The notes under the pieces are model-generated. The model was not told the DNA's origin, searched no databases, and saw only the letters and a list, made by a program, of their open reading frames with translations. Positions 1-23,104 of a stretch of DNA of 29,785 bases are shown piece after piece. Both the position numbers and the translations under genes were made by a program. This DNA is from a virus. The stretch lies in IMG/VR virus record IMGVR_UViG_3300038450_000036, positions 1-29,785 of that record; one strand, 5' to 3'. Position 1 is the stretch's first letter. Every line of letters starts with the position of its first letter.

Positions 1-180
1 TGCCTCAAGTCTTTTCGCTTTATGGCGTTGATACGATTCTCGTTTTTCTCGTTTTATCCGTGTTGGATTCCGTCGATTCCACTCGTATTGATATTCACGA
101 TGAGCCTGTCGGCAAAGCTCACATCGACATTTGTGATTGCAGTAGGCACCTTGCGTGCCATGTTTGATCTTAGGTGTCAT
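1..180 (-). CDS. HNH homing endonuclease-like protein, N-terminal part (runs off window)
   Basis: The first 60 codons of a minus-strand gene are visible; the 3' part lies outside the window. The start ATG (178-180) overlaps the stop of the 1249-codon gene by a few bases. The N-terminus reads KHGTQGAY followed by a C-x-C-x2-C cluster (HKCRCELCRQAHREY) and a Lys/Arg-rich stretch (NRRNPTRIKREKRE). The same arrangement (HG...Y...GCRCDECR.A.R.Y..W.R.N) opens the complete HNH protein at 8423-8968, so the two look like paralogues. The catalytic HNH motif is not in the window, so the assignment rests on this similarity. A free-standing homing endonuclease placed directly after a host gene fits the pattern seen elsewhere here. 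Confidence 0.6.
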   Translation of the reverse strand, partial: MTPKIKHGTQGAYCNHKCRCELCRQAHREYQYEWNRRNPTRIKREKRESYQRHKAKRLEA

Positions 181-3100
181 TGTGTTTGGTGTAGTTTTCC
201 TCATGCCATCCCACGGGTGAACCCTGCGCGATGCTCCACTCCATGCCGGGATCTTCCTTCTCCGGGTTCATACCGTGAATCGGGCATTTCAGCTTATCCC
301 ACTCACAAGTGCAACCCCGGTAGTTACCATCCGCGTCCATGGCGAATGACTTCTCGTTGGGAAGGTTGGGCGCGAGCATGTGTGAGTCCTGGTAAGCACG
401 ACTATCCGCCTCTTCTGCTCCGAACTTCTCGACGTTCGACCCAGGCGATCCAGTTGCAGTTACGACAGAGAACGCGGTATCCGATGGGGTATCCTTCTTT
501 GCGGAGGCGTCGATAAAGCGGATCGGATGAATCGGAATACTTGGTACCCTTTGCTCGATGGTGTTCCTTCCGTTCTTTGTATCCTCCACCATCGATGTGG
601 TCGAGGTCCAGAACAATGAATCTGTCCTCTCCGCACCCGGAGCATCGGTTGGTGTCGTCAGAGTAGTGGGCAATGATGTCTGCCCTGAGCTTGTCTCTAT
701 TGCGCTTACACTCTTCTTTATGGCATTCCTTGCAGGAGGAATATGGTCCTCCCTCCTTGCGAGGCCAGAAGTCATCGAATGACTTCTCGATTTTGCACTT
801 GCTACAGACCTTGCGTCGGTTCTTGTAGTCGGCTGTGATCTTACCCATCCTTCTAGTATATCATCTTGACTACTCCTACTGTCATACTCATCCGCACCTA
901 CCCTACCGAATGCCTGCGGAATACCACTCCACCCGGCGTCGGTGTGCCAGTCAGATTGCGGTGTATGAATCTTCGGCGCTGTTGGTTCCAGCGGTACTAC
1001 CTGTCCTCCACACATAGGGCATAGGCGGTCACGATCTAGTTCTATCTCGCGCCAGTCTTGTTCACAATCAGGGCATTCTGACATCGGTTGTTCACTAGCG
1101 GTTCGCCATGAGCGTGAACCGTCACCCTCGTTACCCTTGGGGACGAACGGGTTGTGAACCTCACAATGGGTACCCTCCCCACAGTGACATTCGTCGTCTG
1201 TGCGCTCTAGAGGGTTGCGTGGTGTGTAAGGTGCGCTCACGTCACCATGATCGGGAGTGGTACCCTCCCCTTCTGACTCACCCGGAGGCCAGAGTGTCTT
1301 GGGCCTCCATGAGTCTGAGGATTCACTCTTCATCCGCATCCACTCTTCCGGCGTGATGTAGTTGGGATCGGGGAACCCGGTGGCTGGTGCCATCTGCTGT
1401 TCCCATCGCTGCTTGAGTGACTGTGAAAGCGGGCTACCCGGAGCGTCCTTGCGATAAGGTGCTTGGAGTACCCCTCCGTTGTTGATCGCGTCCTTGATAT
1501 GCGGGCAGTGAGCCGCTGTTAGCTCGGCGCATCGGTCGTGCATAGCACCCCTGTCCACGATAGGTGACGACTGATCCGCACGCGCCCACGGGAGTAGGTC
1601 ATCGTGACCGTACTCGTCTGCGAACTCCTTGCGGGCTTTCACATCTACGAACACTTTGCCCTGGTCCACCGGCTCACCGCACAGTAGGCACAAGCTGTTC
1701 TCCCTCGCTTTTTTGGAACGGTCGGCGTGTACCATACCCCACCCTGAACCCTGCTCTGGCTCGTTGAGGTTCTTCTGTGTCCACGGCACCGGGCGCAACC
1801 CTAGCGTCGGGTGCTCCCCTAGCGGGCGAGGCATACCCTTCGGAGCTAGCCCTTTGTCCAAGATGTCGGCTGCGAGCCTGGGCCAGTCCACTATCGGGTA
1901 CTCGGATGCCACCTTCACCATTGACTCATAGTAGTCATGCGGCTGTGGGATCGTCTTGTTCTTCCAATCCCAATGCTCCTCGGCTGGTGTGTGAAGTTGT
2001 GGCTGCACTGCGTGAGGGACAGACATAGCCCGCGTGAGCGGGTCACGGTTCATCTCTTTGATCTGGTCAGCCGGGACGAACCACTTGTCCTTCTCGGTGG
2101 GGAATCCCCAATAGGAGGTACCCTCCTCGTAGGGAGTGCCGTACACTCCCTCGGGCTGGAACTCGATACCGAACACGTTCTGCCACTGAGGGTTGTCCTT
2201 CGGATGCGCAGGCTGTAGGCCGTGCTGCTGGATGCGTGCTCGTTCCTCTGTGGGTGCCATGTGCCACAACCCACCCTCGGGCAAGTCCTCAGACCTGAGC
2301 GTGTCGTAGAAGTCCTCGCGTGGGTAAGGGTACATCTCGCTCTCGCAGTTCGGGCAGAGCATCGCGTCTGAGTTTTCTCCACCATCGAACTCCGAATGGT
2401 TACACTCGGGGCAGACCCATTCACTGCGAGCAACCTTGCTGACCTTCTCACCCCTCTGGTAGATCGTTTTCCACCCCGGTACCTTGGTACGGTCCATCTC
2501 TTTCGTGTCACGGTTGTACTCAGTGTGCTCGCCCGGATCGCCCTGCTCGGATTCGCCGTCGTACTTGAAGCCGGGGTACTCCTTTTCAATGAGAGGCTTG
2601 GCCTCGTCGCTTAGCTCTGGCTCCCAATCCCCGAACGACCAGTAGACCTTTTTCTCGGTCTTGTTCACCCACATATCACCGTAGCTGCCATCCGCGTCAC
2701 CGAAGATGTCATCGAGCGTGCGATCCTCGCGAGCATCGCTCACGCTGGACTCTTCTGTCTCGAATGTGATGGTGGGCGGCGAGATACCATCTGGCAGGCT
2801 CGGGCCGTAGGCGATGGTGATGTGCGGTGAGTATTTGTCGCGAGTGTACTCCCCGACCTCTAGACCCCTATCCTCGGCCTTGTCCACTAGCGCTTCATGG
2901 TGGTCCTGTAGAGACTCACCCTCTACGAGCAGCACGATAGGGTGCAACCCTTCTTTGCTCTTTTCTTTGCTCGGAGGAAACTCCTTGATGCCCTTGACGG
3001 TGACCGCATGACGCTCATGAGTCCAGTCATCATCTCGATGCTCACCAGCACCTTCTCCCTGCAAGAACAACATGGTGATGTGATACTCATCCACATCCTC

Positions 3101-3919
3101 AAGCTCCGTGCCTTCGGGCCACTTCTGATCGTGTACCCATTGGTTTATCTCAACCCCGGCTTGGCTAGGAACACCTGCACCAATGTGCATCTCATCTTTC
3201 TTGAAACTACTCTCACGGAATCCTCCAAGGGGTTCCCCAAACTCTTTCGTTTCCCAATCATCTACCATTTCCCGATGCTCGGGCTTTGGCTCAACGTTAT
3301 GCTTGCCCAATACACCGTTGTAATCATCTGTATGATCAATGCTAACGTGAGGTAGGTTGTCGGGATCGCGCAATGAAAAGTACCGACCCTTCTCTCGTAT
3401 CGGTGCATTCCATGGAATCTCATGTAGGTTACCAACTAGAACAGGTTGACCCGACGCACGTTCAGTTCTTTCACCAAATTTCATCGGTTGACCACCCATG
3501 GTCACAAACTTTGCATAAGGTTGATACTCAGGATTTATGGTTTCAGCAATTCCTTCGTGACACTCGGGCCTAAAGCAGTTTCCCATCAACTCACCCTCGC
3601 GACGGAGGTCGCCTAGAGTCTGAGGTTCGCGGATAGTCCACCCGTTGCCAAAGTCATGTACGGGCACCGACATATCTGGCTGACCGTGTTCTTGCTCTAA
3701 CCCTTCCGCTCGACGTAGCTGCTGAGTTCGAGTTTCTGTCGCCATCTTAGTCTGCGTGGGCTCGGGGCTAAGCTTCTTGAGTCTCCACTGGTCGATGCGC
3801 TCATTCTGAATGGCCTTCACCCTTTGTTCCGTTGGATTGAGTGTGTACGCCCTCTCGGATGGAGTCATCTCGATGTCGCTCTTATCCCAAGCCGCCGCCT
3901 TAGCTTCGAGAGTCAGCAT
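170..3919 (-). CDS. Large modular protein: PcfJ-like, 2H phosphoesterase, ART-like and zinc-ribbon modules
   Basis: This 1249-codon ORF reads as a chain of modules. Residues 86-225 resemble PcfJ-like proteins (REGELMGNC, later FSLRD and VLGKHNVEPKPEH). Residues 244-385 look like a 2H phosphoesterase, with paired H-x-T motifs YHITM (His280) and PHITIAYGP (His366). A zinc ribbon follows (C503/C506, C522/C525), then an ADP-ribosyltransferase-like stretch (LWHMAP near 551, GLQP, GVYG). Residues 743-805 form another Cys/His cluster (CLLCGEPV ... MHDRCAEL ... HCPH). A further ribbon is at C949/C952 and C967/C970. Short VARSE (496-500), VASE (670-673) and TASE (940-943) linkers precede the later modules. 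Residues 1024-1173 are an out-of-frame shadow of the HNH gene at 402-848, so the final 69 codons may be translated separately from ATG 379, which has AGGACT upstream. The start at 3919 lacks a clear ribosome binding site. The context suggests a virion-associated protein; that role is inferred. Confidence 0.7.
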   Translation of the reverse strand: MLTLEAKAAAWDKSDIEMTPSERAYTLNPTEQRVKAIQNERIDQWRLKKLSPEPTQTKMATETRTQQLRRAEGLEQEHGQPDMSVPVHDFGNGWTIREPQTLGDLRREGELMGNCFRPECHEGIAETINPEYQPYAKFVTMGGQPMKFGERTERASGQPVLVGNLHEIPWNAPIREKGRYFSLRDPDNLPHVSIDHTDDYNGVLGKHNVEPKPEHREMVDDWETKEFGEPLGGFRESSFKKDEMHIGAGVPSQAGVEINQWVHDQKWPEGTELEDVDEYHITMLFLQGEGAGEHRDDDWTHERHAVTVKGIKEFPPSKEKSKEGLHPIVLLVEGESLQDHHEALVDKAEDRGLEVGEYTRDKYSPHITIAYGPSLPDGISPPTITFETEESSVSDAREDRTLDDIFGDADGSYGDMWVNKTEKKVYWSFGDWEPELSDEAKPLIEKEYPGFKYDGESEQGDPGEHTEYNRDTKEMDRTKVPGWKTIYQRGEKVSKVARSEWVCPECNHSEFDGGENSDAMLCPNCESEMYPYPREDFYDTLRSEDLPEGGLWHMAPTEERARIQQHGLQPAHPKDNPQWQNVFGIEFQPEGVYGTPYEEGTSYWGFPTEKDKWFVPADQIKEMNRDPLTRAMSVPHAVQPQLHTPAEEHWDWKNKTIPQPHDYYESMVKVASEYPIVDWPRLAADILDKGLAPKGMPRPLGEHPTLGLRPVPWTQKNLNEPEQGSGWGMVHADRSKKARENSLCLLCGEPVDQGKVFVDVKARKEFADEYGHDDLLPWARADQSSPIVDRGAMHDRCAELTAAHCPHIKDAINNGGVLQAPYRKDAPGSPLSQSLKQRWEQQMAPATGFPDPNYITPEEWMRMKSESSDSWRPKTLWPPGESEGEGTTPDHGDVSAPYTPRNPLERTDDECHCGEGTHCEVHNPFVPKGNEGDGSRSWRTASEQPMSECPDCEQDWREIELDRDRLCPMCGGQVVPLEPTAPKIHTPQSDWHTDAGWSGIPQAFGRVGADEYDSRSSQDDILEGWVRSQPTTRTDARSVASAKSRSHSMTSGLARREDHIPPARNAIKKSVSAIETSSGQTSLPTTLTTPTDAPGAERTDSLFWTSTTSMVEDTKNGRNTIEQRVPSIPIHPIRFIDASAKKDTPSDTAFSVVTATGSPGSNVEKFGAEEADSRAYQDSHMLAPNLPNEKSFAMDADGNYRGCTCEWDKLKCPIHGMNPEKEDPGMEWSIAQGSPVGWHEENYTKHNDT
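402..848 (-). CDS. HNH endonuclease nested inside the 1249-codon ORF
   Basis: The 148-aa product has an N-terminal zinc cluster (CSKCKIEKSF ... CKECHKEECK), a second pair (CSGCGED), the HNH core DLDHIDGGG and a closing RVLCRNCNW. This is the layout of phage HNH homing endonucleases. ATG 848 is preceded by AGAAGG, a reasonable ribosome binding site. The gene lies wholly within the larger ORF 170-3919, in a different frame. The larger frame stays open throughout, but its residues there have no protein-like features. No room for a group I intron is seen around it, so it is an ORF-only insertion. It would spread by cutting endonuclease-free alleles of its host gene (family knowledge). Confidence 0.82.
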   Translation of the reverse strand: MGKITADYKNRRKVCSKCKIEKSFDDFWPRKEGGPYSSCKECHKEECKRNRDKLRADIIAHYSDDTNRCSGCGEDRFIVLDLDHIDGGGYKERKEHHRAKGTKYSDSSDPLYRRLRKEGYPIGYRVLCRNCNWIAWVERREVRSRRGG

Positions 3920-6157: not shown

Positions 6158-6300
6158 CAGCTAGACTCCGCCACCAACTCGTTGAAGAACCGCGAGCGGA
6201 GGCCGGTGCCTCCACACGTCAGGCATGGGTGGCCGTCAAGCTCGTTGCGCGTGCCCTCGCAATCGCCGCAGACGTGTTCGCAGGAGTCCTTGGGAGCCAA
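6157..6300 (-). CDS. Cys-rich zinc-knuckle ORF, possibly a 5'-truncated gene
   Basis: This frame encodes CEHVCGDCEG and, 13 residues later, CLTCGGTG, a pair of C-x2-C-x-G-like knuckles as in DnaJ-type zinc fingers, then SRFFNELVAESS. No ATG or GTG lies near; a TTG at 6298-6300 with GAGACAGGG upstream is the nearest candidate start. Its 5' part overlaps the AP2 gene in another frame. The protein-like composition and the TGATG junction with the next gene argue that it is real. It may be the surviving 3' end of a gene interrupted when the AP2 ORF arrived. Confidence 0.4.
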   Translation of the reverse strand: MAPKDSCEHVCGDCEGTRNELDGHPCLTCGGTGLRSRFFNELVAESS

Positions 6301-6794
6301 CCCTGTCTCATGCCCGCAGATGTCAAGCGAGGATCTTCGCCTGTCTCGTAGAACGCTTCTGCCATGCGCTTCGCCTCGTCCAAGTCCTTGTACGAGCCAA
6401 GCCGTTTCTTGACACCATCCTTGTCGCGCACCTGGACGAACCATCGGTTACGCTTGCTGTTCCAACTGATACCCGTGATGCCGCTCTTGTTGTCGGGGTG
6501 AAGGCATCCCGACTGTTTGCGCACGGCGTGGCCCTTGAGAGCGATAGCTCGCGCTACCACGGGGTCGAGCTTTTCCTTGTGCCGTTTGACTCCGCGTGAA
6601 CGATCCGCGTTCGCCCGACGCTGAATGACCTTGCGCGGGATCGCCATCTGTAGACGGAAGTCACTGGCGGCTATCCCGGCGTCGGCTGCGTCCTCGTACA
6701 CACCCAAGTAGACGTGCTTGCCATCGACTTTGACGCTCGCGAGCCACTTGCCGTGAGTCTTACTCCACGTAACGCCTCGAAAGCCAGAACGCAT
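6219..6794 (-). CDS. Double AP2-domain DNA-binding protein (mobile-element type)
   Basis: The 191-aa product has two AP2-like domains. The first is at about 3-50 (GFRGVTWSKTHGKWLASV, KHVYLGVYEDAADAG). The second is at about 103-150 (SGITGISWNSKRNRWFVQV, KRLGSYKDLDEAKRMAEAF). A basic linker joins them. In phages AP2 domains usually accompany HNH nucleases in homing enzymes, but no HNH core is visible here. It could be a nuclease-less relic or a DNA-binding regulator. ATG 6794 overlaps the stop of the double-psi-barrel gene (TAATG) with GAGGGAG upstream. The last 40 residues are low in complexity and overlap the Cys-rich frame, so the original C-terminus may have been lost. Confidence 0.72.
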   Translation of the reverse strand: MRSGFRGVTWSKTHGKWLASVKVDGKHVYLGVYEDAADAGIAASDFRLQMAIPRKVIQRRANADRSRGVKRHKEKLDPVVARAIALKGHAVRKQSGCLHPDNKSGITGISWNSKRNRWFVQVRDKDGVKKRLGSYKDLDEAKRMAEAFYETGEDPRLTSAGMRQGWLPRTPANTSAAIARARATSLTATHA

Positions 6795-7218: not shown

Positions 7219-8429
7219 GTCCTTCGTGTCGTGGTGGCTGATCCGTAAGGTGGGATGTCCGGGCGAGCGATGAGGTCGGCGGGCCAGTGCCACGCCTTGA
7301 CCCCGTGCGGTTCGTTCGGCCCATTGTTGGCGGCAGGACCGGGGTAGTAGACTTCGACCAACCCCGTGCTCGGGTGGGTGCCTTCGACCTGGCCGATGCT
7401 GTTGGCTGGTACCGCCTTGGGATCGCCTCCGTTGAGGCCGACCCATTGGCCGATGTCGTCCTGCTTGAGTTGCACCATGTCGCCTTCATTGAACGGGGAC
7501 TTCTCCGCCGCTACGTGCGAGAAGGTACCCCCGGCGTTCTGGATCGGGTTGAGGGGCGACTGCGGCTTCTGACCGGGCACTGATACCGGGTTCATGGCGG
7601 GCATGTTCTCAGGATTGGCCGGGTACGGTGGCAGTGCGGGACTCGGTTCGGGAGCTTGGCCCGGAGGCATACCCTGGCCCACGGCCTGCGGTACCTGTGG
7701 AGGCTGCATGAGCATCGGTGACGCCCCTGGCGGGACCATCCCTCCTGCGCCGGGGTATTCACCCTGCTGGATGCGCTGGGCCGCTGGGCCTTCTGGCGTG
7801 CCTTCGGCGGTAGCTGGCTGTTCGGTCCACCCTTCCGGTATCTGTTCCATCTCCTGCGGCACTGATCGAGCCGCCCAATAGAGCGCGAGTACGTGCGCGC
7901 ACGGGCGACCCTCGAAGCGCTTCCACTGACGGGTGCGTCCCCACGCGAACTGACCCCAATCGCATTCGCAGTTCCACCGCGAGATGGATTCCGATTCCGG
8001 GTTGGCGTCCTTCTTGATGTTGACCTCGTAAGTGCCGTGGTCGCCTTCCACGATGCCCTGAATCTCGTCGGCGTGATTGGCCTGAACGTGAACTTTGCCC
8101 GACTGGATCAACCGAACCGCCTTGGACTCAACGTCTGAGTAGTCGGCGGTCTTGTGTTCATGGGTGAAAGTGAACATCTGGCGCTCTAGGCCGTGCTCCT
8201 CAAGCATGCCGCTCACGTACTGTTCAGCAAACCACTGATCGTCGTGGGAGCCACCCACCAGTTGAAGCGTGTAGAACCCCGGCTGAGGTTCGACCCAGGT
8301 AGCCGTGGTCGCACCTACCTTGGTGGTGTGCGGAGGCAGGTGAGGCAAGTCCGACCCGATGTACGAGCGAACGTAGTCCTCGAACCAGACCTCATCATCC
8401 TGGGTCATAGTGATCTTCCAATCTAGCAT
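7215..8429 (-). CDS. SWIM zinc-finger protein with Pro-rich linker and C-terminal SH3-like module
   Basis: The 404-aa protein has an N-terminal alpha/beta region (1-130) and then a SWIM finger: C154-x-C156 in WNCECDWGQ and C177-x-H179 in GRPCAHVLALYW, the family's CxCx(n)CxH pattern. SWIM domains bind DNA or protein partners. A long Pro/Gly/Gln-rich linker (about 200-300) leads to FSHVAAE (303-309) and a C-terminal module (GDMVQLKQDDIGQWV, then VEVYYPG) resembling KOW/SH3-type barrels. The VAAE linker matches the sites found between modules of neighbouring proteins. ATG 8429 has GGAAGAG six bases upstream, inside the end of the preceding HNH gene. A virion role is inferred from context. Confidence 0.7.
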   Translation of the reverse strand: MLDWKITMTQDDEVWFEDYVRSYIGSDLPHLPPHTTKVGATTATWVEPQPGFYTLQLVGGSHDDQWFAEQYVSGMLEEHGLERQMFTFTHEHKTADYSDVESKAVRLIQSGKVHVQANHADEIQGIVEGDHGTYEVNIKKDANPESESISRWNCECDWGQFAWGRTRQWKRFEGRPCAHVLALYWAARSVPQEMEQIPEGWTEQPATAEGTPEGPAAQRIQQGEYPGAGGMVPPGASPMLMQPPQVPQAVGQGMPPGQAPEPSPALPPYPANPENMPAMNPVSVPGQKPQSPLNPIQNAGGTFSHVAAEKSPFNEGDMVQLKQDDIGQWVGLNGGDPKAVPANSIGQVEGTHPSTGLVEVYYPGPAANNGPNEPHGVKAWHWPADLIARPDIPPYGSATTTRRT

Positions 8430-8968
8430 TTGTTGCTCTTCCGTCTATTACATGAAGGATGAGCAGGCTGCACATTGGCGTAGCAGTGCAAACCTTCCTT
8501 GCTCAAGGGTATCACATGGTCTACGTGAAACCACGCTTCGCCTTTCGCTATGCGTTCTAGCGCTTCGGGTGCGTTCTTGTCGATGAACTGCTCGCAGATT
8601 CCGCACATGCCGCCGTGCATCTCGTAGACCGTATCCCGTTCTACCTGCTCAATAAACGCATTGTGTTCGCGAGCACGACGAGTATTGCTGCTTCTATGAT
8701 TGTCAGCGCGAGCCTTCTCCGGGTTGTTAGTTGCCCATTTTCGTTTAGCCTTTAGATTCTGCTCACGGATGCGTTCACGGTTTTTGTCACAATAGCGTTT
8801 TTTGACTTCGTTCCTTCTTTTGCGATGGTTGGTTTCCCAACGCTTAGAGGACGCCCTCGCCTTGGTACGATTTTTACGTTGCCAATCACACTTATACACA
8901 CGATTTGCCTCTCGACACTCGTCGCAACGACATCCACTTACGTAGGTTCTGTATTCACCGTGGTTCAT
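8423..8968 (-). CDS. HNH homing endonuclease
   Basis: The 181-aa protein starts with a zinc cluster (GCRCDECREANRVY), continues through a Lys/Arg-rich helical region and ends with a McrA-type HNH domain: CGICEQF, HVDHVIPLSKEG and HPSCNRRKSNK. Catalytic His and Asn positions are intact. ATG 8968 lies inside the last codons of the upstream nucleotidyltransferase/GNAT gene, and its stop overlaps the SWIM gene start. The codons for CNRRKS contain TAATAGACGGAAGAGC, 14 of 16 bases identical to the box before 15091. The gene looks AT-richer than its neighbours, which fits mobility. The N-terminus is paralogous to the partial gene at 1-180. Confidence 0.88.
   Translation of the reverse strand: MNHGEYRTYVSGCRCDECREANRVYKCDWQRKNRTKARASSKRWETNHRKRRNEVKKRYCDKNRERIREQNLKAKRKWATNNPEKARADNHRSSNTRRAREHNAFIEQVERDTVYEMHGGMCGICEQFIDKNAPEALERIAKGEAWFHVDHVIPLSKEGLHCYANVQPAHPSCNRRKSNKC
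8442..8450 (-). promoter_or_regulatory. TAATAGACG box inside the HNH 3' end (copy 3)
   Basis: TAATAGACG occurs 12 bases upstream of the start of the SWIM gene, within the codons for the HNH active-site string CNRR. Either the endonuclease preserved a pre-existing upstream signal of its neighbour, or the other boxes derive from HNH 3' ends. Confidence 0.3.
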
Positions 8969-11039
8969 TGGATTCCGGTTCTATCGGAGGAATGCCCGAA
9001 TCCCTCACTGGAATATCTTCTTCGGCTACACTATCGTAGAGAGCGCGCTGATTTCCATTCCAAGCACGCTTGTATGCCTCATTCAAATCTTCATGGCTTT
9101 CCGTCACATCCAGCCACACATCGCCCTCTGCTATCCAAGCGCCCACGTATTTCCCAGGCTGAGATAGCTCGCGCAGGTGGTGCTGGATGTACGCTTCGAT
9201 GTCGTGCGGTGTCACCGTCTGCAACGAGATGCGTTCCTCGCTACTCTTGTCGGGCGCAAACCCGTAACGGGCTGTCGGCTCTTCGCCTGCGAGGTTGAGG
9301 GTAATACCACCTTCCATGACGCCGGTAAAGATGCGCTCCACCAGTTCGTGCAGTGAGGTAGACCCCATGTGATAGAACTCGTATTCAGTAAGTGGCTTGA
9401 GATCCTTTACAAACGTGGCAGGATTGTAACCTTCGTCACCCTGGTAGGCCCGCGCCCATTCTCGCCCGGAGTCTGAATACCCACCCATGTCGATAGGCTG
9501 GTCAGGGTAGTGCTCCTGTAGCTTGTCCATCATCCAGGTAGCGATCCCTTTGCGCTTGTATGGCTCATGCGTGCGTAGCATCAGCACACCCGGAGGGAAC
9601 GGGTTTTCTTCATCACCCGTAGTGTACTGTAGGTGGCCTACCTCGCCCTGAGTGGGGTGTATGGCGTGAAGTGTCGGCACCAAGAACTCACCACTATCGT
9701 CACCCTTCTCCATGGTGTGTTCGGGTTTGAGTTCGTTGATGAACTGCTCGTCGTACGGCATCGCCACAACCTGCCATGTGCTGAGCACGCGGTCGTGCTC
9801 GCCTAGCTCTTCTTCCAGGGATTTGATCGCCATTTTCAGAGGCAGGGCGTGCTTGTTACTCATCTGTGCCATTTCGCGGTATTCGCGGAGCAGGATTTCA
9901 AGTTCATCCCTTGGCCTTAGATCGCGTGCATGCCCGCCGTAGCCCGCCTGCTTATCCTGGCGTTCGAGAATGTCGAGCACGTTCTGCCCGTGGCCGAACC
10001 CTGGCTCTGCGGTGTTGAGTTCTTCCTGCCGACGCGAAGGTGCCATTTCGAGGCGAGGGTCGATGCTCTGAATCTGAGCTTGCTGCTGTGGGTTGAGGCT
10101 GCGCCCTGCGCCGAACTGCCACACTTTGCCCTCTTTGATCGCGAAGGCGCTGCCTGGTACTGTCTGTAGTCCCTGCGATTTTGCCTCCATGTTGTAGCGC
10201 ATGTGCGGAGGCTTCAAGTCCTTGGTCGGCCACGTCCACATTGAGCCGTCTGTGAATAGCAGACCCTTGCCTTCCGGGTGAATAGCCCGGTCGTATTCCA
10301 GGCGATGAGCAGAGGTCTTGGTAGAGGCGATGTACTCACCGCTCTCCTGTGCGATCTGTGGCAGGAGGCCACGCTGTGCGAGGAACTTGTAGACGATGTT
10401 GCTCTCGGCGGTGTCACCCTTCCCCGCCTGCATGTCACGCCTGCGACGACGGTGAATGGCGTGCCAGAAGTCCACCGCCTTTTTCGGCTCATAGCGCAGC
10501 AGTCGCTCCATCTTGTCAGCCATCTGCAACGCCCAGGAGTAGAAGCCATTCTCTTCTGACTCGATGTCGTGGATACGCTGCTTCTCGGGAGCCACGATCC
10601 ATTTGTTGTTGTCAATGTCGTATGCGCTGCGCAGCCCTGGTCGGTAGATGTCATGCGGCTTGACACCCTCGGGGATCACGAACGCCTGTAGAGGGTACGG
10701 GGTACCCGGCATGTAGTGCTCGTCAAGCTGTGACACCATGAGGCCGATCATCTCAGCCCTGCTCCACTCGGGGAACTTCTCACTGTCTACGAACAGGCTG
10801 ACATCCGCGTCACTGTCGTCGCTGTACTGGTAAGTGGTGAGCGAGCCAGTGAAACAGAGTGTGAGCCACTGCTCCGGGTTGGTGTAACCTGCCTGATCCA
10901 GCGTCGAGTAGATCGACTTCTTGATCCAGTGGGCGTGCTTCGGCTTGAGCACCGGGTGCCCTGAACCAGCTTTCTCCCACACGCGGGGATCAAGCGTGTC
11001 GTGGATCGGGTCTAGGACGTTAGCTACCTGGCTGAGCAT
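8955..11039 (-). CDS. Nucleotidyltransferase-fold plus GNAT multidomain protein
   Basis: From ATG 11039 the protein has 694 residues. Near residue 62 it has the nucleotidyltransferase signature FTGSLTTYQYSDDSDADVSL, with Gly-Ser and the metal-binding D-x-D. At about 415-530 lies a GNAT-like acetyltransferase segment (GVLMLRTHEPYKRKGIATWMMD, the acetyl-CoA loop). The C-terminal part (GGITLNLAGEEPTARYGF, VGAWIAEGDVWLDVTESHEDL, AYKRAWNGNQRALYD) has the look of a recurring phage module of unknown role. An upstream ATG at 11081 is possible, but 11039 has AGGAA ten bases before it and overlaps the CCA-type gene less. It may modify host tRNA or proteins; substrates cannot be inferred. Confidence 0.72.
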   Translation of the reverse strand: MLSQVANVLDPIHDTLDPRVWEKAGSGHPVLKPKHAHWIKKSIYSTLDQAGYTNPEQWLTLCFTGSLTTYQYSDDSDADVSLFVDSEKFPEWSRAEMIGLMVSQLDEHYMPGTPYPLQAFVIPEGVKPHDIYRPGLRSAYDIDNNKWIVAPEKQRIHDIESEENGFYSWALQMADKMERLLRYEPKKAVDFWHAIHRRRRRDMQAGKGDTAESNIVYKFLAQRGLLPQIAQESGEYIASTKTSAHRLEYDRAIHPEGKGLLFTDGSMWTWPTKDLKPPHMRYNMEAKSQGLQTVPGSAFAIKEGKVWQFGAGRSLNPQQQAQIQSIDPRLEMAPSRRQEELNTAEPGFGHGQNVLDILERQDKQAGYGGHARDLRPRDELEILLREYREMAQMSNKHALPLKMAIKSLEEELGEHDRVLSTWQVVAMPYDEQFINELKPEHTMEKGDDSGEFLVPTLHAIHPTQGEVGHLQYTTGDEENPFPPGVLMLRTHEPYKRKGIATWMMDKLQEHYPDQPIDMGGYSDSGREWARAYQGDEGYNPATFVKDLKPLTEYEFYHMGSTSLHELVERIFTGVMEGGITLNLAGEEPTARYGFAPDKSSEERISLQTVTPHDIEAYIQHHLRELSQPGKYVGAWIAEGDVWLDVTESHEDLNEAYKRAWNGNQRALYDSVAEEDIPVRDSGIPPIEPESNEPR

Positions 11040-13125
11040 CGGCGTATTCCTGAGCGCGCTGTAGGAGAGCTTCGCGGTCATTGAGTTTCGGATCGTCTAC
11101 CACGTCATCTGTTAGCTGGCGCAGAATGGTGCCGATCTGCGGGCCTGCCTTTATGCCAAGGCCCATAATGTCGTTACCGTTGACAGCTAGCGCGGACTGA
11201 GTGGTGGGAGCACCCTGCTGTCGCTCGTTTTCGATGAGTTGGCGCATCTGTTCCACATTGTCTGTGCTCTCGGTGCCCTTGCCCTCCCCATCGCATTCAC
11301 GCAGTGTGAGTAGGTCGTCGGCGTGCTGGCCGTTCTGCTGTAGGAACTTGCGTGCCCCCTTCGGTTTCTCGAAGTTGCCGAACATGTGGGCGTTGATGAG
11401 TGAGTGAATGCGGCGCATGTTCTCCACCGGGTAGTTGAAGGTCTGACGCAGGCGGGCCTCGGCCATGTTCGCGCCCAAGGCTGCGTGGTCCGCGCCCCAA
11501 TTCTCGGCACGCTGCCACTTACCCCCAGGAGCGAGTTCTGCGTCTAGGTGCTGCGGACGTGGGTAGTAGTGAGCCACACCGTGACCGTCGAACCACTGCG
11601 ACCCCGGCTTGCCGATGTCGTGAAGCAACGCAGCGAGGCGCATGTCAGGGTTAGGTGTGATTCGCGCCATGTTGTCGAGCACCTGTAGTGAGTGGTCGCC
11701 AAGGGAGTAGTTGTGGTGTGGATTGTGCTGGTCGAAGTCGTAGTTCTCCGCAAGCTCCGGGAATAGGTGGTGAAGCACGCCAGTTTCCTGCGCGAGTCGT
11801 ACCGCCCGTGCCGGGTTTGCGCTCACCATCAGTTTCTCTAGCTGGACCCGTAGGGCGTCCGGTGACTCATGGTCGAGCATGTGCGCGGATTCACCCATCT
11901 CGGCCCTCGTCTTCTCATCCGGCTCTAGGCCGAAGCGCGAGGTAGCGGTGAGCGCACGCATAAGCCTCGTCGGATCCTCCTTGAATGACTTCGGGTGAGT
12001 GGTGCGAAGCACGCCACGGCTGATGTCGCCTGAGCCGTCGAATGGGTCAATGAGTTGACCGCTGTTGAGGTCCACGGCCATGCTGTTCGCGGTGAAGTCA
12101 CGGCGTTCCAGATCCTTCTCGATAGGTAGGTTCGGGTCGGCGCTGATTTTCACATCAGCGCGTTTGCCACCCTCGTAGTCGTCTTTGCGTGGAAGCGCAA
12201 TCTCTACCTCTTTGCCGTGCGTGTGGTAGACGTAGATGCCGAACCTCGAACCGCGCATGTCAACCTGTCCAGGGAGTGACGTAAGGATTCGGTGAACCTC
12301 CTCGCTAGGTAGACCACCAACCAGCAAGTCAATGTCCTTGGGTTGACGTTGTAGGAGGGCATCGCGGACCGCACCGCCCACCACATATACGTGACCGCCA
12401 GCAGCACCAAGAGCTTGATACGCCTTCCACGCCGCAGGGTCAGCAGACGCGAGTGTGCGGATGTACTGCCCGACATCCTCCGATGCGAGCTTGACCTTCT
12501 TCTGTCCTGTGTTTTCATAGTCCACTCCTGTTACCTCCAACGTTGGATGACTCCAATACCACAATTGTACCATGTGGTAGTTCGTGTAGGGGATCGATGT
12601 TTTGGTCGTGATGACCATCTTGCCGCCAGGTTCATAGTAGCCCTCCACTATACCACCCGGCGTGAACTCGCCTTGCACGTCCGCTGTTTTCTGGCCGGGG
12701 TGCCCGACTTCGATTTCGTCTTTTTCGACATCGTAGACGAACGGGATCGGCGCTTGCAAGATGTCCTTGCCTTCCTGACCAGCGATCTTGAGCCATAGTC
12801 CCGGCTGTGCCTCAAGCAGTCCCACTCGGGATAGGAGGCGTTCCTCCTCCGGGCTGTCAGCACCGGCTTTGAGGCTCGGGAAGTGGAGCGCGATGCGACG
12901 GAGCATGGCCTCGTTCATGGCGTCCTCACGAACCGCTGAGTGAACCACGATGACTCTCGGCACGTCGCTGTCGAGCTTGACCACGCCGAAGCCGACAAGC
13001 TGTCCGTTGAGATAGCCGCCGTAGACCCGGAACTGCTTGTCGTTGAAGCCCCACCAGCCACCGTATTCGGCGTAGTCTGGTGCGCGAGCAGCCTCCTTGA
13101 CACTGGCGAGCGGCTGCACGGTCAT
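11020..13125 (-). CDS. CCA-adding enzyme/poly(A) polymerase-like protein with HD domain and extra N-terminal module
   Basis: The C-terminal ~485 residues form a class II tRNA nucleotidyltransferase: YVVGGAVRD (from residue 247), the metal site DID (264-266), RRDFTANSMAVD (341-352), LIDPFDG, LRTTHPKSFKEDPTR and ATSRFG. An HD phosphohydrolase domain follows (HNYSLGDHSLQV, LLHDIGKP with His502-Asp503). Such enzymes add or repair the tRNA 3' CCA. Residues 1-212 are extra and unrecognised (YGGWWGFNDKQFRVYGGY, later GIVEGYYEPGGKM), joined by KLASE (212-216). At 701 residues it is well above the roughly 400-480 typical of the family. ATG 13125 with AAGGA upstream is preferred over 13182, which would overlap the HNH gene. 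It may repair tRNAs damaged by host defence nucleases, or may be packaged; both are inference. Confidence 0.88.
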   Translation of the reverse strand: MTVQPLASVKEAARAPDYAEYGGWWGFNDKQFRVYGGYLNGQLVGFGVVKLDSDVPRVIVVHSAVREDAMNEAMLRRIALHFPSLKAGADSPEEERLLSRVGLLEAQPGLWLKIAGQEGKDILQAPIPFVYDVEKDEIEVGHPGQKTADVQGEFTPGGIVEGYYEPGGKMVITTKTSIPYTNYHMVQLWYWSHPTLEVTGVDYENTGQKKVKLASEDVGQYIRTLASADPAAWKAYQALGAAGGHVYVVGGAVRDALLQRQPKDIDLLVGGLPSEEVHRILTSLPGQVDMRGSRFGIYVYHTHGKEVEIALPRKDDYEGGKRADVKISADPNLPIEKDLERRDFTANSMAVDLNSGQLIDPFDGSGDISRGVLRTTHPKSFKEDPTRLMRALTATSRFGLEPDEKTRAEMGESAHMLDHESPDALRVQLEKLMVSANPARAVRLAQETGVLHHLFPELAENYDFDQHNPHHNYSLGDHSLQVLDNMARITPNPDMRLAALLHDIGKPGSQWFDGHGVAHYYPRPQHLDAELAPGGKWQRAENWGADHAALGANMAEARLRQTFNYPVENMRRIHSLINAHMFGNFEKPKGARKFLQQNGQHADDLLTLRECDGEGKGTESTDNVEQMRQLIENERQQGAPTTQSALAVNGNDIMGLGIKAGPQIGTILRQLTDDVVDDPKLNDREALLQRAQEYADAQPGS

Positions 13126-13132
13126 AGAGTCC

Positions 13133-13678
13133 TTACGGAAGCTCACTGAACCCACCCTCAACCTCGGAATGACAGTTGCCACAGAGCAGAATACACTTCT
13201 TTGCCTCTACCCGCGCTGCCTCAATTCCAGGTCCATGTTGATTCACATGAAACTCCTTTGTCGTACGATCCCGATGGTGGAAATGAAAAGCGCCCAGGTA
13301 TCTATCGTATCCGCAAATAACACACTTGCCCCCATGCTCCTTGACAAGCGTTTCCTTACGTCGTTTATTCCAATTGCGAGCGTGCATGCTAGCGCAAGAT
13401 TGGCAACGATAACGCATTGTCCCATCGCCTCGAAGAACGAACTTTCCAATGCCATGCCGCTTACATTCCCCCGTCGCCATACGCCCATCTTCGCTAATAT
13501 CCCAAATTGGCACACGACGGCCTGGACTACCGCCTTTGTAATGTCCGCGAATGAATCGCACAGGTTGTCCTTTGACATGACCCCTTGAAACGTTTGTCTT
13601 GGTTGCGATAGGAGCCATTTTCCCACAACCACACTCACATAAGCTATCCATAGTAATTACCGATGAGTTTCGTGTCAT
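13133..13678 (-). CDS. HNH homing endonuclease with N-terminal zinc finger
   Basis: The 181-aa protein opens with CECGCGKMAPIA, followed by a basic region, a second finger (CKRHGIGKFV ... YRCQSCASMHARNW) and a C-terminal HNH domain: CVICGYDRYLGAFHFHHRD, then KCILLCGNCHSEVEGGF. ATG 13678 begins 13 bases after the YunG-like gene; an internal ATG at residue 10 is preceded by GGTAATTAC and is an alternative. Its stop lies 7 bases before the start of the CCA-type gene, and that gene's ribosome binding site (AAGGA) is made by the HNH 3' end. Flanks share GTAAG and TATGAC, perhaps reflecting the insertion. The gene is visibly AT-richer than both neighbours. Confidence 0.88.
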   Translation of the reverse strand: MTRNSSVITMDSLCECGCGKMAPIATKTNVSRGHVKGQPVRFIRGHYKGGSPGRRVPIWDISEDGRMATGECKRHGIGKFVLRGDGTMRYRCQSCASMHARNWNKRRKETLVKEHGGKCVICGYDRYLGAFHFHHRDRTTKEFHVNQHGPGIEAARVEAKKCILLCGNCHSEVEGGFSELP

Positions 13679-13693
13679 AATATAGCCGGTTGC

Positions 13694-15091
13694 TTACTCC
13701 AACGGAGAACTTGAAGGTTCACTGTTCATCGGGCGTAGCTGTAGCGGCTCGTCCAGCCCTTCGATTGTCGGGAAGTGACCATCGTCCAGTTCACCATGAT
13801 CGTGCTCGTCGTCGTGTGAGTCCATGTGCATGACCCACTGCATGTAGTCGGGTAGGTGCTCTCCGCAGTGCGGGCATGTCAACTCACCCTGCGGAGTGCC
13901 TTCGTACTGTGATGGAACTTCACCCTTGTCAGGGTTGCCCTTGTCGTAGATGTCCAGAGTCTCTTTGTTCTTGAGCTTGTCCATCATGTTCCCGCCGCCA
14001 GGGAACTCGGCTATACGGTAGCCAAAGTCCCTTGCCCATTCCTCAAGTCCTTCTCGGACTCGGGAGCTAGTGCGCGGAAGGAAGACCTCACGTCCTCTAG
14101 TAGTAAATCGGCCAAGCGCGTGAAAGAACGGATGCTCACCAATCTGGACCCCGGCTTTCCATCCAAACCAGTAAGACTTCTTAGGGCCAAAGTCATCACC
14201 GAAGGATTCTCCGTTTCCTCGCACCAGTCCTCCCCATCCCCAACCCACACTCTTGCCGTATTCTTCGAGTCGCTTGGCGAGTCCGCGTATTGCGATGTTA
14301 CTCTCAGCACGCCAAATCGCTGTCCCTCCCGCAACGTTGACGACACCAGCGGCGCTAGGCCCACCGTCGTCCGCAGCGACACCGGAATGCTCTCGGAGTT
14401 CGTCGTGATTATGAAAAGGTGATACATGTAGCTGTCCGTTTCCAAAGAACCATCTGTACTCATGTTCGTCGGGAGCCTCCTGGGTTAGTAGTAGATCATT
14501 GAGTGCGTCATGGAAATACTTCTGGCTGTAGTCCTCCTCCTTCTGCGGCGTGTCTCCGGGGTAGGCGTCCCCTCCTAGTCCTGCGCCACCACCTGCCGCG
14601 TCAGCCGTTCGTGGTGGGAGCTTCTGCTCAAGGGCCAGATCCGCCCTCTTACCGAAGAGTGTCGCACGCGGATTTTCCGGATCTTCTTTCACCCGGAAGC
14701 CCTTGTAGAGCGGGTGATCTGCGCGTGTGTAAACGACCGGCCCAGGCCGGTGTTCTTGGTGATCCTGTGGTGGCTCCCACGGTTCGTCCTCGCCGTCCTG
14801 CGGGATCTGCGCCCGCTTGTCAGTAGGCTCGTAAGCGTACTGGTCCCCGGTGAGGTCGATGATGTACTGCTTGTCCGGTGAGGCCCAAAAGTAGTGGCCT
14901 CCCTTCTGCCCGACGTGTCCGCCTAGCTTGCCCTGTAGCCACTTGGATGTGACGTAGCACTGACCCGCAGCAGAGCACGGGTGGCCCTGAAAGTCAGGGT
15001 GCCGCGTGTCGTCCGCCCACGCCTGCTCTGCGGCGTTGCGGAAGTGCTGTAGTTTCTCTTGGCTGACGCTGTGTGGGTCGAATACGCTCAT
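13694..15091 (-). CDS. YunG-like papain-fold protein with phage module and C2H2 finger
   Basis: The N-terminal ~100 residues contain GQCYVTSKWLQGKLGG (Cys45), GGHYFW (His66) and IIDLTGDQY (Asp79), the order and spacing of the Cys-His-Asp triad of YunG-like papain-fold proteins. A central region (about 210-350: GQLHVSPFHNHDELREHSG, SAAGVVNVAGG, RGLAKRLEEYGKS) forms one or two further modules. A C2H2 zinc finger follows at C406/C409/H422/H426 (CPHCGEHL ... HMDSH). It could be a protease or transglutaminase-like enzyme delivered with the virion; the activity is inferred. ATG 15091 lacks a classical Shine-Dalgarno and is preceded by GGGGTAATAGATGG. Confidence 0.68.
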   Translation of the reverse strand: MSVFDPHSVSQEKLQHFRNAAEQAWADDTRHPDFQGHPCSAAGQCYVTSKWLQGKLGGHVGQKGGHYFWASPDKQYIIDLTGDQYAYEPTDKRAQIPQDGEDEPWEPPQDHQEHRPGPVVYTRADHPLYKGFRVKEDPENPRATLFGKRADLALEQKLPPRTADAAGGGAGLGGDAYPGDTPQKEEDYSQKYFHDALNDLLLTQEAPDEHEYRWFFGNGQLHVSPFHNHDELREHSGVAADDGGPSAAGVVNVAGGTAIWRAESNIAIRGLAKRLEEYGKSVGWGWGGLVRGNGESFGDDFGPKKSYWFGWKAGVQIGEHPFFHALGRFTTRGREVFLPRTSSRVREGLEEWARDFGYRIAEFPGGGNMMDKLKNKETLDIYDKGNPDKGEVPSQYEGTPQGELTCPHCGEHLPDYMQWVMHMDSHDDEHDHGELDDGHFPTIEGLDEPLQLRPMNSEPSSSPLE

Positions 15092-17862: not shown

Positions 17863-18273
17863 TCACCCTCGATACCGCTCAATGAGTTCATCAGCCCACT
17901 GTAGCAGATCCTCGACCCGTTGACCCTTGGGATGATTGGTCGTCCACAACTCAAGATTCTCGATGCGGTTGTCAGACCGATTACCCTTCTTGTGATGTAC
18001 TGTCTCGTCCGGAAGAAGTGCGCGACCAAGATGTTCTGCCATGACCAGCCGATGCTCAAGAATCTGACCCTTAGAATCCGCATTGGGATGACCATGAGCC
18101 TTGACTTCTCGGTATCCGTCTTTAGTGCTCCATCCTCCCGAACCGTCTGTAATCGGTTCTCGCCCGCGATGGAGAGGACGCCGCTTACGGCCCTTGATCT
18201 TCTGATAGTAGTGACCACTACACAGTCCCTTGCAACGAACGGGGTGATCGCATCCTGGAAATGAACACTCCAC
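17863..18273 (-). CDS. HNH homing endonuclease with actinophage-type zinc finger
   Basis: The 136-aa protein starts with a zinc finger (CSFPGCDHPVRCKGLCSGHY) and ends in an HNH core: LEHRLVMAEHLGR, ETVHHKKGNRSDNRIENLEL, with the catalytic His pair and Asn residues intact. This combination is frequent in HNH genes of actinobacterial phages. The start is GTG 18273. An ATG two bases upstream opens a shadow frame without HNH features. GTAATAT precedes the start. The gene separates the DUF6899-like gene from the 67-aa gene, and its end supplies the next ribosome binding site. Confidence 0.88.
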   Translation of the reverse strand: MECSFPGCDHPVRCKGLCSGHYYQKIKGRKRRPLHRGREPITDGSGGWSTKDGYREVKAHGHPNADSKGQILEHRLVMAEHLGRALLPDETVHHKKGNRSDNRIENLELWTTNHPKGQRVEDLLQWADELIERYRG

Positions 18274-21308: not shown

Positions 21309-22625
21309 TCAGCGGTACTGTTCGTCCCTCCACAGAAGAACGCCCTTGCCCTTCGTCTTGACGTAGGTTGCGTTCTCGATCCTGAACGTGCCATCGGCGT
21401 GAACGACCGCCGTGGAGAAGCCCTGTTGCCAGTCGGGAGCGACCGTGTAGTTCGGCCACTGCCTGCCCTTGTACGGCTTCTGATCGATTTTGCAGAGGCA
21501 GCCTGCCTCGGCAGCCGTCAGTGTCGTCGTGCCGCCGTCGATGTCGTGGCGAGTTTTGTAGATGAGTGACTGACGGTGGGTGTGACCCACGATGCAGGAG
21601 TAACCGAGGTAGTCGAGCGTAGCGAGAGCCGACACGCCTGATCCCTGTCGGGCGATCCAGCCGTGGCGCACAGCCAAGTGGTCGCTGAGGTTGATCTGCG
21701 CCATGTCATACGGACCCGAAGGATCTACGTACTCGATGCCCAACTCGTCCAAGCGAAGCAAGTGAGGGATCGAGAGCACGGGCGGGCCATCCTCGTCCGG
21801 GGTGTCCGCCTGCTTGACGCCGTAGAGCGACCGCACTGCTGGCTTGTCGAGCAGGATGTTGCGCATGCGCTCATCGTGGTTGCCTGCAAGTTTGCGGATG
21901 CGCGCATTCGGGGCAGCCTGACGTACGCCGCGTAGGTTGTCGTAGCCGGTCTGGATACACTCGTTGACCGTGGCTCCGTTCTCCGGGTCTAGCCTGTGAC
22001 GGCTGATGTCCGGAAAGTCCACAGTGTCACCGAGGCTGACAATCTCGTCGGGCTGGTTCTGTTCGAGCCAGCCGCAGAGTAGGTAGTGCAGGTTCTCGTC
22101 CGCGAACGGCTCCTGCTGGTCGCCTATGATGGCGACAAGGTGTGATCCCTCTGTCGGGAGACTGCGCTGCGGCGCTTTCCACCCATCGCTACGGGCCGGG
22201 AAGATGAACGAGTCCACGTTGCGCTTGAGGCGGAGCTTCGCCTGGTGGTACGTGACCGGACCCTCTTGGCTCGGGCCATCCCACTCGTTGATGACTGCGC
22301 CCTCGATGTCCCACTCGGCGGGATCAAGGCCACGTTCTTCAAGCATGGTGTCCGGGTCATCGAGCTTGACCCCGACCTGGCGGGGAGTCGTGACCTCTGC
22401 TGTGCCCTTCTCTACCTTCACGCCCGGTCGGAGTGGGGAGTTAGACGGCGGGGCTAGGCCGTTACGCTTGCGGAACCTCCGGATGGAGTCCTTGGTGGTG
22501 AGAACACCTTGGGTGCTGAGTGATGAAACGATGCTGCTGTTGGTCTTACCTGCGGCGATGTACTCTCGGACTAGCCTATGAACTTTCGGGTCGTCAAGAG
22601 GACTGACGTTACTGCTGTTACTCAT
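21309..22625 (-). CDS. Calcineurin-like phosphoesterase with N-terminal helix-turn-helix
   Basis: The 438-aa protein starts with a helix-turn-helix-like region (VREYIAAGKTNSSIVSSL, TKDSIRRFRKRNG). A metallophosphoesterase core follows: IGDQQEPFADENLH (a D-x-Q variant of the usual D-x-H), SLGDTVDFPDIS, KLAGNHDERM, AVRHGW and IVGHTHR, giving all five metal-site motifs. Phage members are thought to act on nucleic acids or nucleotides, and the substrate is unknown. ATG 22625 has AAAGGAGATAAC directly upstream, a strong ribosome binding site. The start overlaps the stop of the LAGLIDADG gene (ATGA), so the insertion left its expression signals intact. Confidence 0.88.
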   Translation of the reverse strand: MSNSSNVSPLDDPKVHRLVREYIAAGKTNSSIVSSLSTQGVLTTKDSIRRFRKRNGLAPPSNSPLRPGVKVEKGTAEVTTPRQVGVKLDDPDTMLEERGLDPAEWDIEGAVINEWDGPSQEGPVTYHQAKLRLKRNVDSFIFPARSDGWKAPQRSLPTEGSHLVAIIGDQQEPFADENLHYLLCGWLEQNQPDEIVSLGDTVDFPDISRHRLDPENGATVNECIQTGYDNLRGVRQAAPNARIRKLAGNHDERMRNILLDKPAVRSLYGVKQADTPDEDGPPVLSIPHLLRLDELGIEYVDPSGPYDMAQINLSDHLAVRHGWIARQGSGVSALATLDYLGYSCIVGHTHRQSLIYKTRHDIDGGTTTLTAAEAGCLCKIDQKPYKGRQWPNYTVAPDWQQGFSTAVVHADGTFRIENATYVKTKGKGVLLWRDEQYR

Positions 22626-23104
22626 GTTATCTCCTTTGTCGGGACTCGGTAACTCTGCTTCAATTCTTTCATGCGCTCGTAACAAGCCTTGCGATACGAA
22701 GCCTCCTCAATACTAACACGTCTACCCGACGTAGAGGTATGTTCGTGAAACTCTAGAGCCAAAGTAACTTGCTCCTGCTTGATGCGGACATACGGTTGTA
22801 TAGATTGCAAGAACGCTGCGGCCTGGTCGCGATACAAATCGAGGCGCTTGCAAACATTCAATTCACGCTTAGGCGAGGCGAGGTAGCCGCCATATGTACG
22901 CGCGAGGTCATCAATAATGCCATGATACGTGTTGGATACCTGCACATGCAGTCGGTAAGTGTGCAGAAGTGTTCCAATCGAAGTATGGTAAGGACTTCGA
23001 TTGATAGATACACAGCCCTCCCCATCGAAGAAACCAGCAAGATAAGCCAGTTCGTAAGACTGCTCAAACTTGCTGATCTTCTGACTTTGGCTCGGTTGAC
23101 TCAT
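22622..23104 (-). CDS. LAGLIDADG homing endonuclease (single motif)
   Basis: The 160-aa protein has one LAGLIDADG-type motif, LAYLAGFFDGEGCVSI, with Asp and Glu at the expected acidic positions, then the strand pattern YRLHVQVSNTYHGIIDDLA and later QSIQPYVRIKQEQVTLAL. Single-motif members act as homodimers that cut long asymmetric sites. ATG 23104 is chosen because AAAGGATGAGA precedes it; an in-frame ATG two codons earlier is too close to that site. It overlaps the portal gene by 41 bases and the phosphoesterase start by four. AAAGGA ... ATGAGT occurs at both its start and the next gene's start. The gene appears AT-richer than its neighbours. Confidence 0.9.
   Translation of the reverse strand: MSQPSQSQKISKFEQSYELAYLAGFFDGEGCVSINRSPYHTSIGTLLHTYRLHVQVSNTYHGIIDDLARTYGGYLASPKRELNVCKRLDLYRDQAAAFLQSIQPYVRIKQEQVTLALEFHEHTSTSGRRVSIEEASYRKACYERMKELKQSYRVPTKEIT

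Follow-up and report, generated by a model that had tools for sequence, protein, structure and literature searches.

A phage gene that stays open in its own frame through a nested HNH endonuclease gene

How can a gene harbor a complete homing endonuclease gene in another reading frame and still be open from end to end? Three fates are known for homing endonucleases that reside within genes: they are spliced out with an intron or intein, they split the gene, or they take the place of its end. The locus studied here lies in a 29,785-nt tailed-phage fragment, termed the window (portal protein matching phrog_2833, 6e-149), whose main genes are encoded on the minus strand. An original prediction placed a 148-codon HNH gene inside a 1249-codon ORF in a different frame, with the outer frame uninterrupted, and both the ORF coordinates and our stop check agree with this: zero outer-frame stops are found across the nested gene (Table 1). 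The G+C content of the three codon positions agrees with the HNH frame within 848–402 and with the outer frame on either side.

Besides a 2H-phosphoesterase-like domain, the outer gene encodes zinc-ribbon-like stretches and a C-terminal CTC..KLxCPxHG module. Since single-sequence AlphaFold2 models of the C-terminal part were uninformative (pLDDT 38, pTM 0.13), it is from composition that the segment encoded across the HNH gene appears probably unstructured. The C-terminus of the outer gene is shorter in the window than in a relative, G001, and its stop is overlapped (204..170) by an HNH-type gene at 1–204 on the minus strand, which is cut by the contig end and may be another insertion that has trimmed the end of the outer gene.

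Table 1. Positions of the features discussed, in the window unless a relative's contig (L002 of G002, L035 of G001) is named.
Feature	Position	Strand	Remarks
Outer gene	3919..170	-	ORF, 1249 codons (1249 aa)
2H-phosphoesterase-like domain, two HxT motifs	2730-3210 (outer residues ~236-397)	-	Weak 2H/RNA-ligase match, phrog_755, 6e-4
Left target-motif version, GADEYDSRSSQDD	898..860	-	Outer residues 1008-1020
11-mer GATGATATACT	855..865	-	Also at L002 6643-6653, just upstream of the G002 nested HNH gene
Putative read-through segment, outer frame	401..850	-	~150 residues, Ser/Thr/Pro-rich; missing at this site in G001 and G002
Nested HNH endonuclease gene	848..402	-	148 codons, +1 relative frame, phrog_2255 match
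Right target-motif version, GAEEADSRAYQDS	421..383	-	Outer residues 1167-1179; overlaps last codons of the HNH gene
C-terminal module of outer gene	173..382	-	Kept in frame in both relatives, G001 and G002
Homing-endonuclease-like genes (seven; HNH, AP2-type, LAGLIDADG-like)	1-204, 402-848, 6219-6794, 8423-8968, 13133-13678, 17863-18273, 22622-23110	-	
Outer-gene orthologues	P0002; L035 5878..10050		
G002 nested HNH_3 gene	L002 6656..7063		Pfam 1.5e-14; directly after the 2H domain

Homology searches identified the nested gene as a true member of the HNH endonuclease family, as its product matches phrog_2255 (HNH endonuclease, 3e-16) over residues 6–132 and tblastn retrieved HNH genes of Arthrobacter phages with E-values down to 1e-15; none of the Pfam HNH models reached its cut-off, and the single-sequence AlphaFold2 model was uninformative (pLDDT 52). 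Relatives of the HNH gene were found in 26 other viral loci, in none of which they are nested.

Conservation analysis of the outer gene yielded two relatives on viral contigs of about 168–170 kb, G001 and G002, whose outer genes have flanks syntenic with much of the window; G002 was picked up by outer-gene homology alone and not by the nested-HNH feature. Further searches of viral contigs, with the outer protein and by alignment, and of genome contigs gave these two only, and a scan of a phage collection returned no convincing orthologue. In G001, the outer gene is one 1390-codon ORF without a nested HNH gene. The window HNH gene is missing at this site in both relatives, a sporadic presence that it shares with free-standing phage HNH genes. 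The outcome named as refuting the original prediction, homologues in which the HNH-overlapping residues are conserved, was sought and not found: at this site the segment is absent from G001 as well as G002. The 2H-like domain of G002 (L002 6190–6645) has the anti-CBASS protein Acb1 as its best Pfam match (1.7e-4, below cut-off).

The insert is bordered by two similar strings in the outer frame. Our recount of GADEYDSRSSQDD and GAEEADSRAYQDS agrees with the original prediction in giving eight identical residues out of 13, six of the eight being encoded by different codons; a recent DNA duplication had been doubted on this ground, and the match of just 20 of the 39 bases bears this out. Instead, the strings are two codon-diverged versions, one on each side of the HNH gene, of a target motif that is single in the uninserted homologues: G001 carries the motif GADQSDTREYPDA once, its string reading HFGADQSDTREYPDARMM and lying directly before the CTC..KLDCPVHG module, and in G002 the corresponding string KTSADQADTREMPDQM likewise occurs once before this module. 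The two versions are spaced by 477 nt, so that the outer frame is kept. Scored against the relatives, the right copy (33) is closer to them than the left (27.5), and either copy may be the native one.

Chance resemblance of the two strings was ruled out by a random-pair test and a motif scan. With 25-residue flanks, none of 4000 random pairs of stretches from the same protein was as similar, and with longer flanks the fraction was 0.0015–0.003. When the three outer proteins were scanned with the G001/G002 motif, the window protein was matched at residues 1008 and 1167 only, and among 17630 stretches of other proteins a single one scored equally high. Another protein of the phage contains a similar string, GADADDSYEKPDQ, and the target motif may therefore be a recurrent linker element.

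Does the open outer frame reflect anything but chance? Upon synonymous re-coding of the window HNH gene with the phage's own codon usage, the outer frame remained open in 15–23% of the trials. Openness alone at this locus is thus unremarkable and compatible with chance (P 0.15–0.23). This leaves room for a recent neutral or harmful insertion, in which the frame would be open by accident in G+C-rich DNA, the C-terminal part dispensable, and the motif pair a coincidence or a recurrent linker. Two other homing-type genes also have an open alternative frame, a second HNH gene truncates the end of the same outer gene at 204..170, and the motif-like string elsewhere in the phage would fit as well. 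Against recency stand the diverged codons of the two motif versions, and against coincidence the flank similarity (P <0.003) and a second case in which an open frame, a kept frame and a flanking motif pair recur with unrelated parts.

This second case is found in G002, where an HNH_3 gene of another family is nested at a different position of the outer gene and in relative frame +2 instead of the +1 seen in the window. The outer ORF of G002 is open through the HNH_3 gene and continues in frame into the C-terminal modules. Here too, the endonuclease gene has a version of one motif on each side (SSVSSPRDD and STVSTPREE), and this motif is single in G001 (SSVSPPRED) and in the window (SSVSDARED); in other proteins, none of 17630 stretches scored equally high. 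The flank-to-flank similarity corresponds to P ~0.007 among random pairs with 25-residue flanks and to 0.025 with 45-residue flanks. Judged by family, site and frame, the G002 layout arose independently of that in the window.

Moreover, the HNH gene of G002 avoids stops in the outer frame: none is observed where about 5.8 are expected, with zero-stop probabilities of ~7e-5 when its own codons are permuted, 0.001 under host codon usage, and 0 of 30000 trials under HEG codon usage. Stretches of G002 host genes, used as a more lenient null, have this frame open in 3.4% of cases. Of 19 further homing-type genes from the window and G002, none has the G002-type frame open, each carrying 3–15 stops. 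None of these figures takes account of the frame being preserved as well, for which an insert has a one-in-three chance. We consequently regard a recent insertion with an accidentally open frame as improbable. An open alternative frame is also present at G002 49954..50361, but this locus is intergenic and precedes an RNase-H-like gene.

As nothing stops the ribosome, translation in the outer frame probably continues across the insert. The original prediction had left open whether the gene is split into two parts or read through; read-through is favored by the lack of an in-frame stop and by the stop avoidance in G002, and a split is not needed to explain the locus. In such a fission, the HNH gene would have divided the outer gene into two working pieces, with the C-terminal 70 residues restarted at the ATG at 379. 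This ATG and the upstream AGGACTCACAC are present as predicted, with AGGA located seven bases upstream, and split genes are a known outcome in T4-like phages (PMC2988022).

The window itself contains a true fission. The HNH gene 13678..13133 on the minus strand splits a gene (region 11020–15091) into ORFs of 465 and 720 aa, the latter including a tRNA nucleotidyltransferase domain, and the counterpart of this pair is one ORF in G002 (1149 aa) and G001 (1235 aa). The left piece ends with NSEPSSSPLE and a stop, whereas the right piece is in another frame and has a new start after AAGGACTCT-ATG, similar to the arrangement at 379; about five junction residues are found on both sides of this HNH gene. 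Here a stop and a new start separate the host parts, as in the phage genes-in-pieces. At the nested HNH gene they do not: the left piece lacks a stop, so that translation would in any case run on into the C-terminal module, the insert preserves the frame, and the parallel insert of G002 avoids stops. Fission of the outer gene is therefore unlikely in our view, and the ATG at 379 is a candidate internal start that could add internal initiation. Read-through and fission thus appear to occur side by side in one 30-kb window.

Removal of the insert from the RNA as an intron or from the protein as an intein was ruled out as extremely improbable. HNH genes are common in phage introns, e.g., in ICP1 (PMC10448857), but the HNH ORF takes up all except ~30 nt of the 477-nt unit, which leaves no room for an intron. 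An Rfam search of the window with E-values up to 1 gave zero matches, including none to a group I intron core, and the surroundings of the G002 insert gave a chance-level match only. No intein domain was found in the outer protein, and the HNH frame differs from that of the outer protein.

We therefore consider it fairly probable that the nested genes of the window and G002 are splice-less homing-endonuclease insertions in interdomain linkers that are tolerated through read-through of the host frame. According to this model, an HNH homing endonuclease gene that brings neither intron nor intein would have inserted into the linker of a multidomain phage gene. Because the insert preserves the outer frame (477 nt) and is free of stops in it, ribosomes would pass through, and the N-terminal domains would be connected to the C-terminal module via ~150 unrelated residues, a Ser/Thr/Pro-rich stretch that the host protein would tolerate in its linker. 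The endonuclease would be made from its own start inside the insert and would cut uninserted alleles in co-infected cells, where repair would copy the insert in; since the host gene survives, the insert could spread. The motif copies may derive from a diverged homologue of the target that the element brought along, as in fungal mitochondria (PMC3630166), or from an old duplication maintained in the protein sequence. Their different codons might also shield the insert ends from the element's own nuclease.

Several known systems resemble parts of this layout. Fungal mitochondrial mobile endonuclease ORFs (mORFs) with duplicated gene ends have been described in Allomyces atp6 and in Glomus atp6, atp9, cox2, and nad3, one mORF being in phase and without a stop (PMC3630166). 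As in these elements, an endonuclease gene in the window lies in a coding gene between two diverged versions of host sequence, and the same holds for G002. In the fungal cases, however, the duplication spans the complete C-terminal end, of which one copy takes over, and an in-phase mORF is possible. In the window, by contrast, the repeat amounts to only ~13 codons, the outer gene goes on beyond the insert, and the endonuclease is encoded in another frame. The phage genes-in-pieces, mobE in nrdA of Aeh1 and mobA in gene 60 of T4 (PMC2988022), likewise combine a homing endonuclease gene within a phage gene with a retained host function; there, the host gene is expressed as separate polypeptides, in contrast to the window, where the two parts have no stop between them. 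Free-standing phage HNH genes (phrog_2255, HNH_3) share family, sporadic presence, and a position next to or in host genes, but they usually reside between genes or in introns, whereas the window HNH gene is fully nested in another frame of a continuous gene.

A search of open-access literature for homing endonuclease genes that are nested, or read in an alternative frame, within a host gene whose own frame stays open found no description, so that the novelty of read-through nesting is provisional. If correct, read-through in another frame would be a further in-gene lifestyle of homing endonucleases, with selection on the host frame acting inside a selfish gene, and such genes would be expected in flexible linkers. 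It is possible, although doubtful, that a whole phage class of splice-less homing elements spares its host genes by overprinting, each with a nuclease gene kept stop-free in the host frame and a diverged copy of the target linker, so that the host protein would be read through with a disposable linker and the interrupted target would no longer be cut. Such loci also call for caution in annotation, as a gene caller that does not allow long overlaps will miss one of the two genes, the nuclease or the host.

The 11-mer GATGATATACT precedes the nested genes of both the window and G002, in the same outer-frame phase (DDIL), and TATACT has a single minus-strand occurrence in the window. The 11-mer is a possible −10 element ahead of the nested HNH genes; a full sigma-70 promoter was sought for the nested HNH gene and not found, and we treat a dedicated promoter as a lead only.

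The 30-kb window contains seven homing-endonuclease-like genes, while G002 has about 20 and G001 few. At the contig ends of G002 (L038 1–1929 and the end of L039), second copies of the N-terminal part of a 708-aa gene and of the C-terminal part of the tRNA nucleotidyltransferase were observed, which reflect either a tandem duplication or an assembly effect, and LAGLIDADG-like and HNH_3 genes lie between the duplicated parts.
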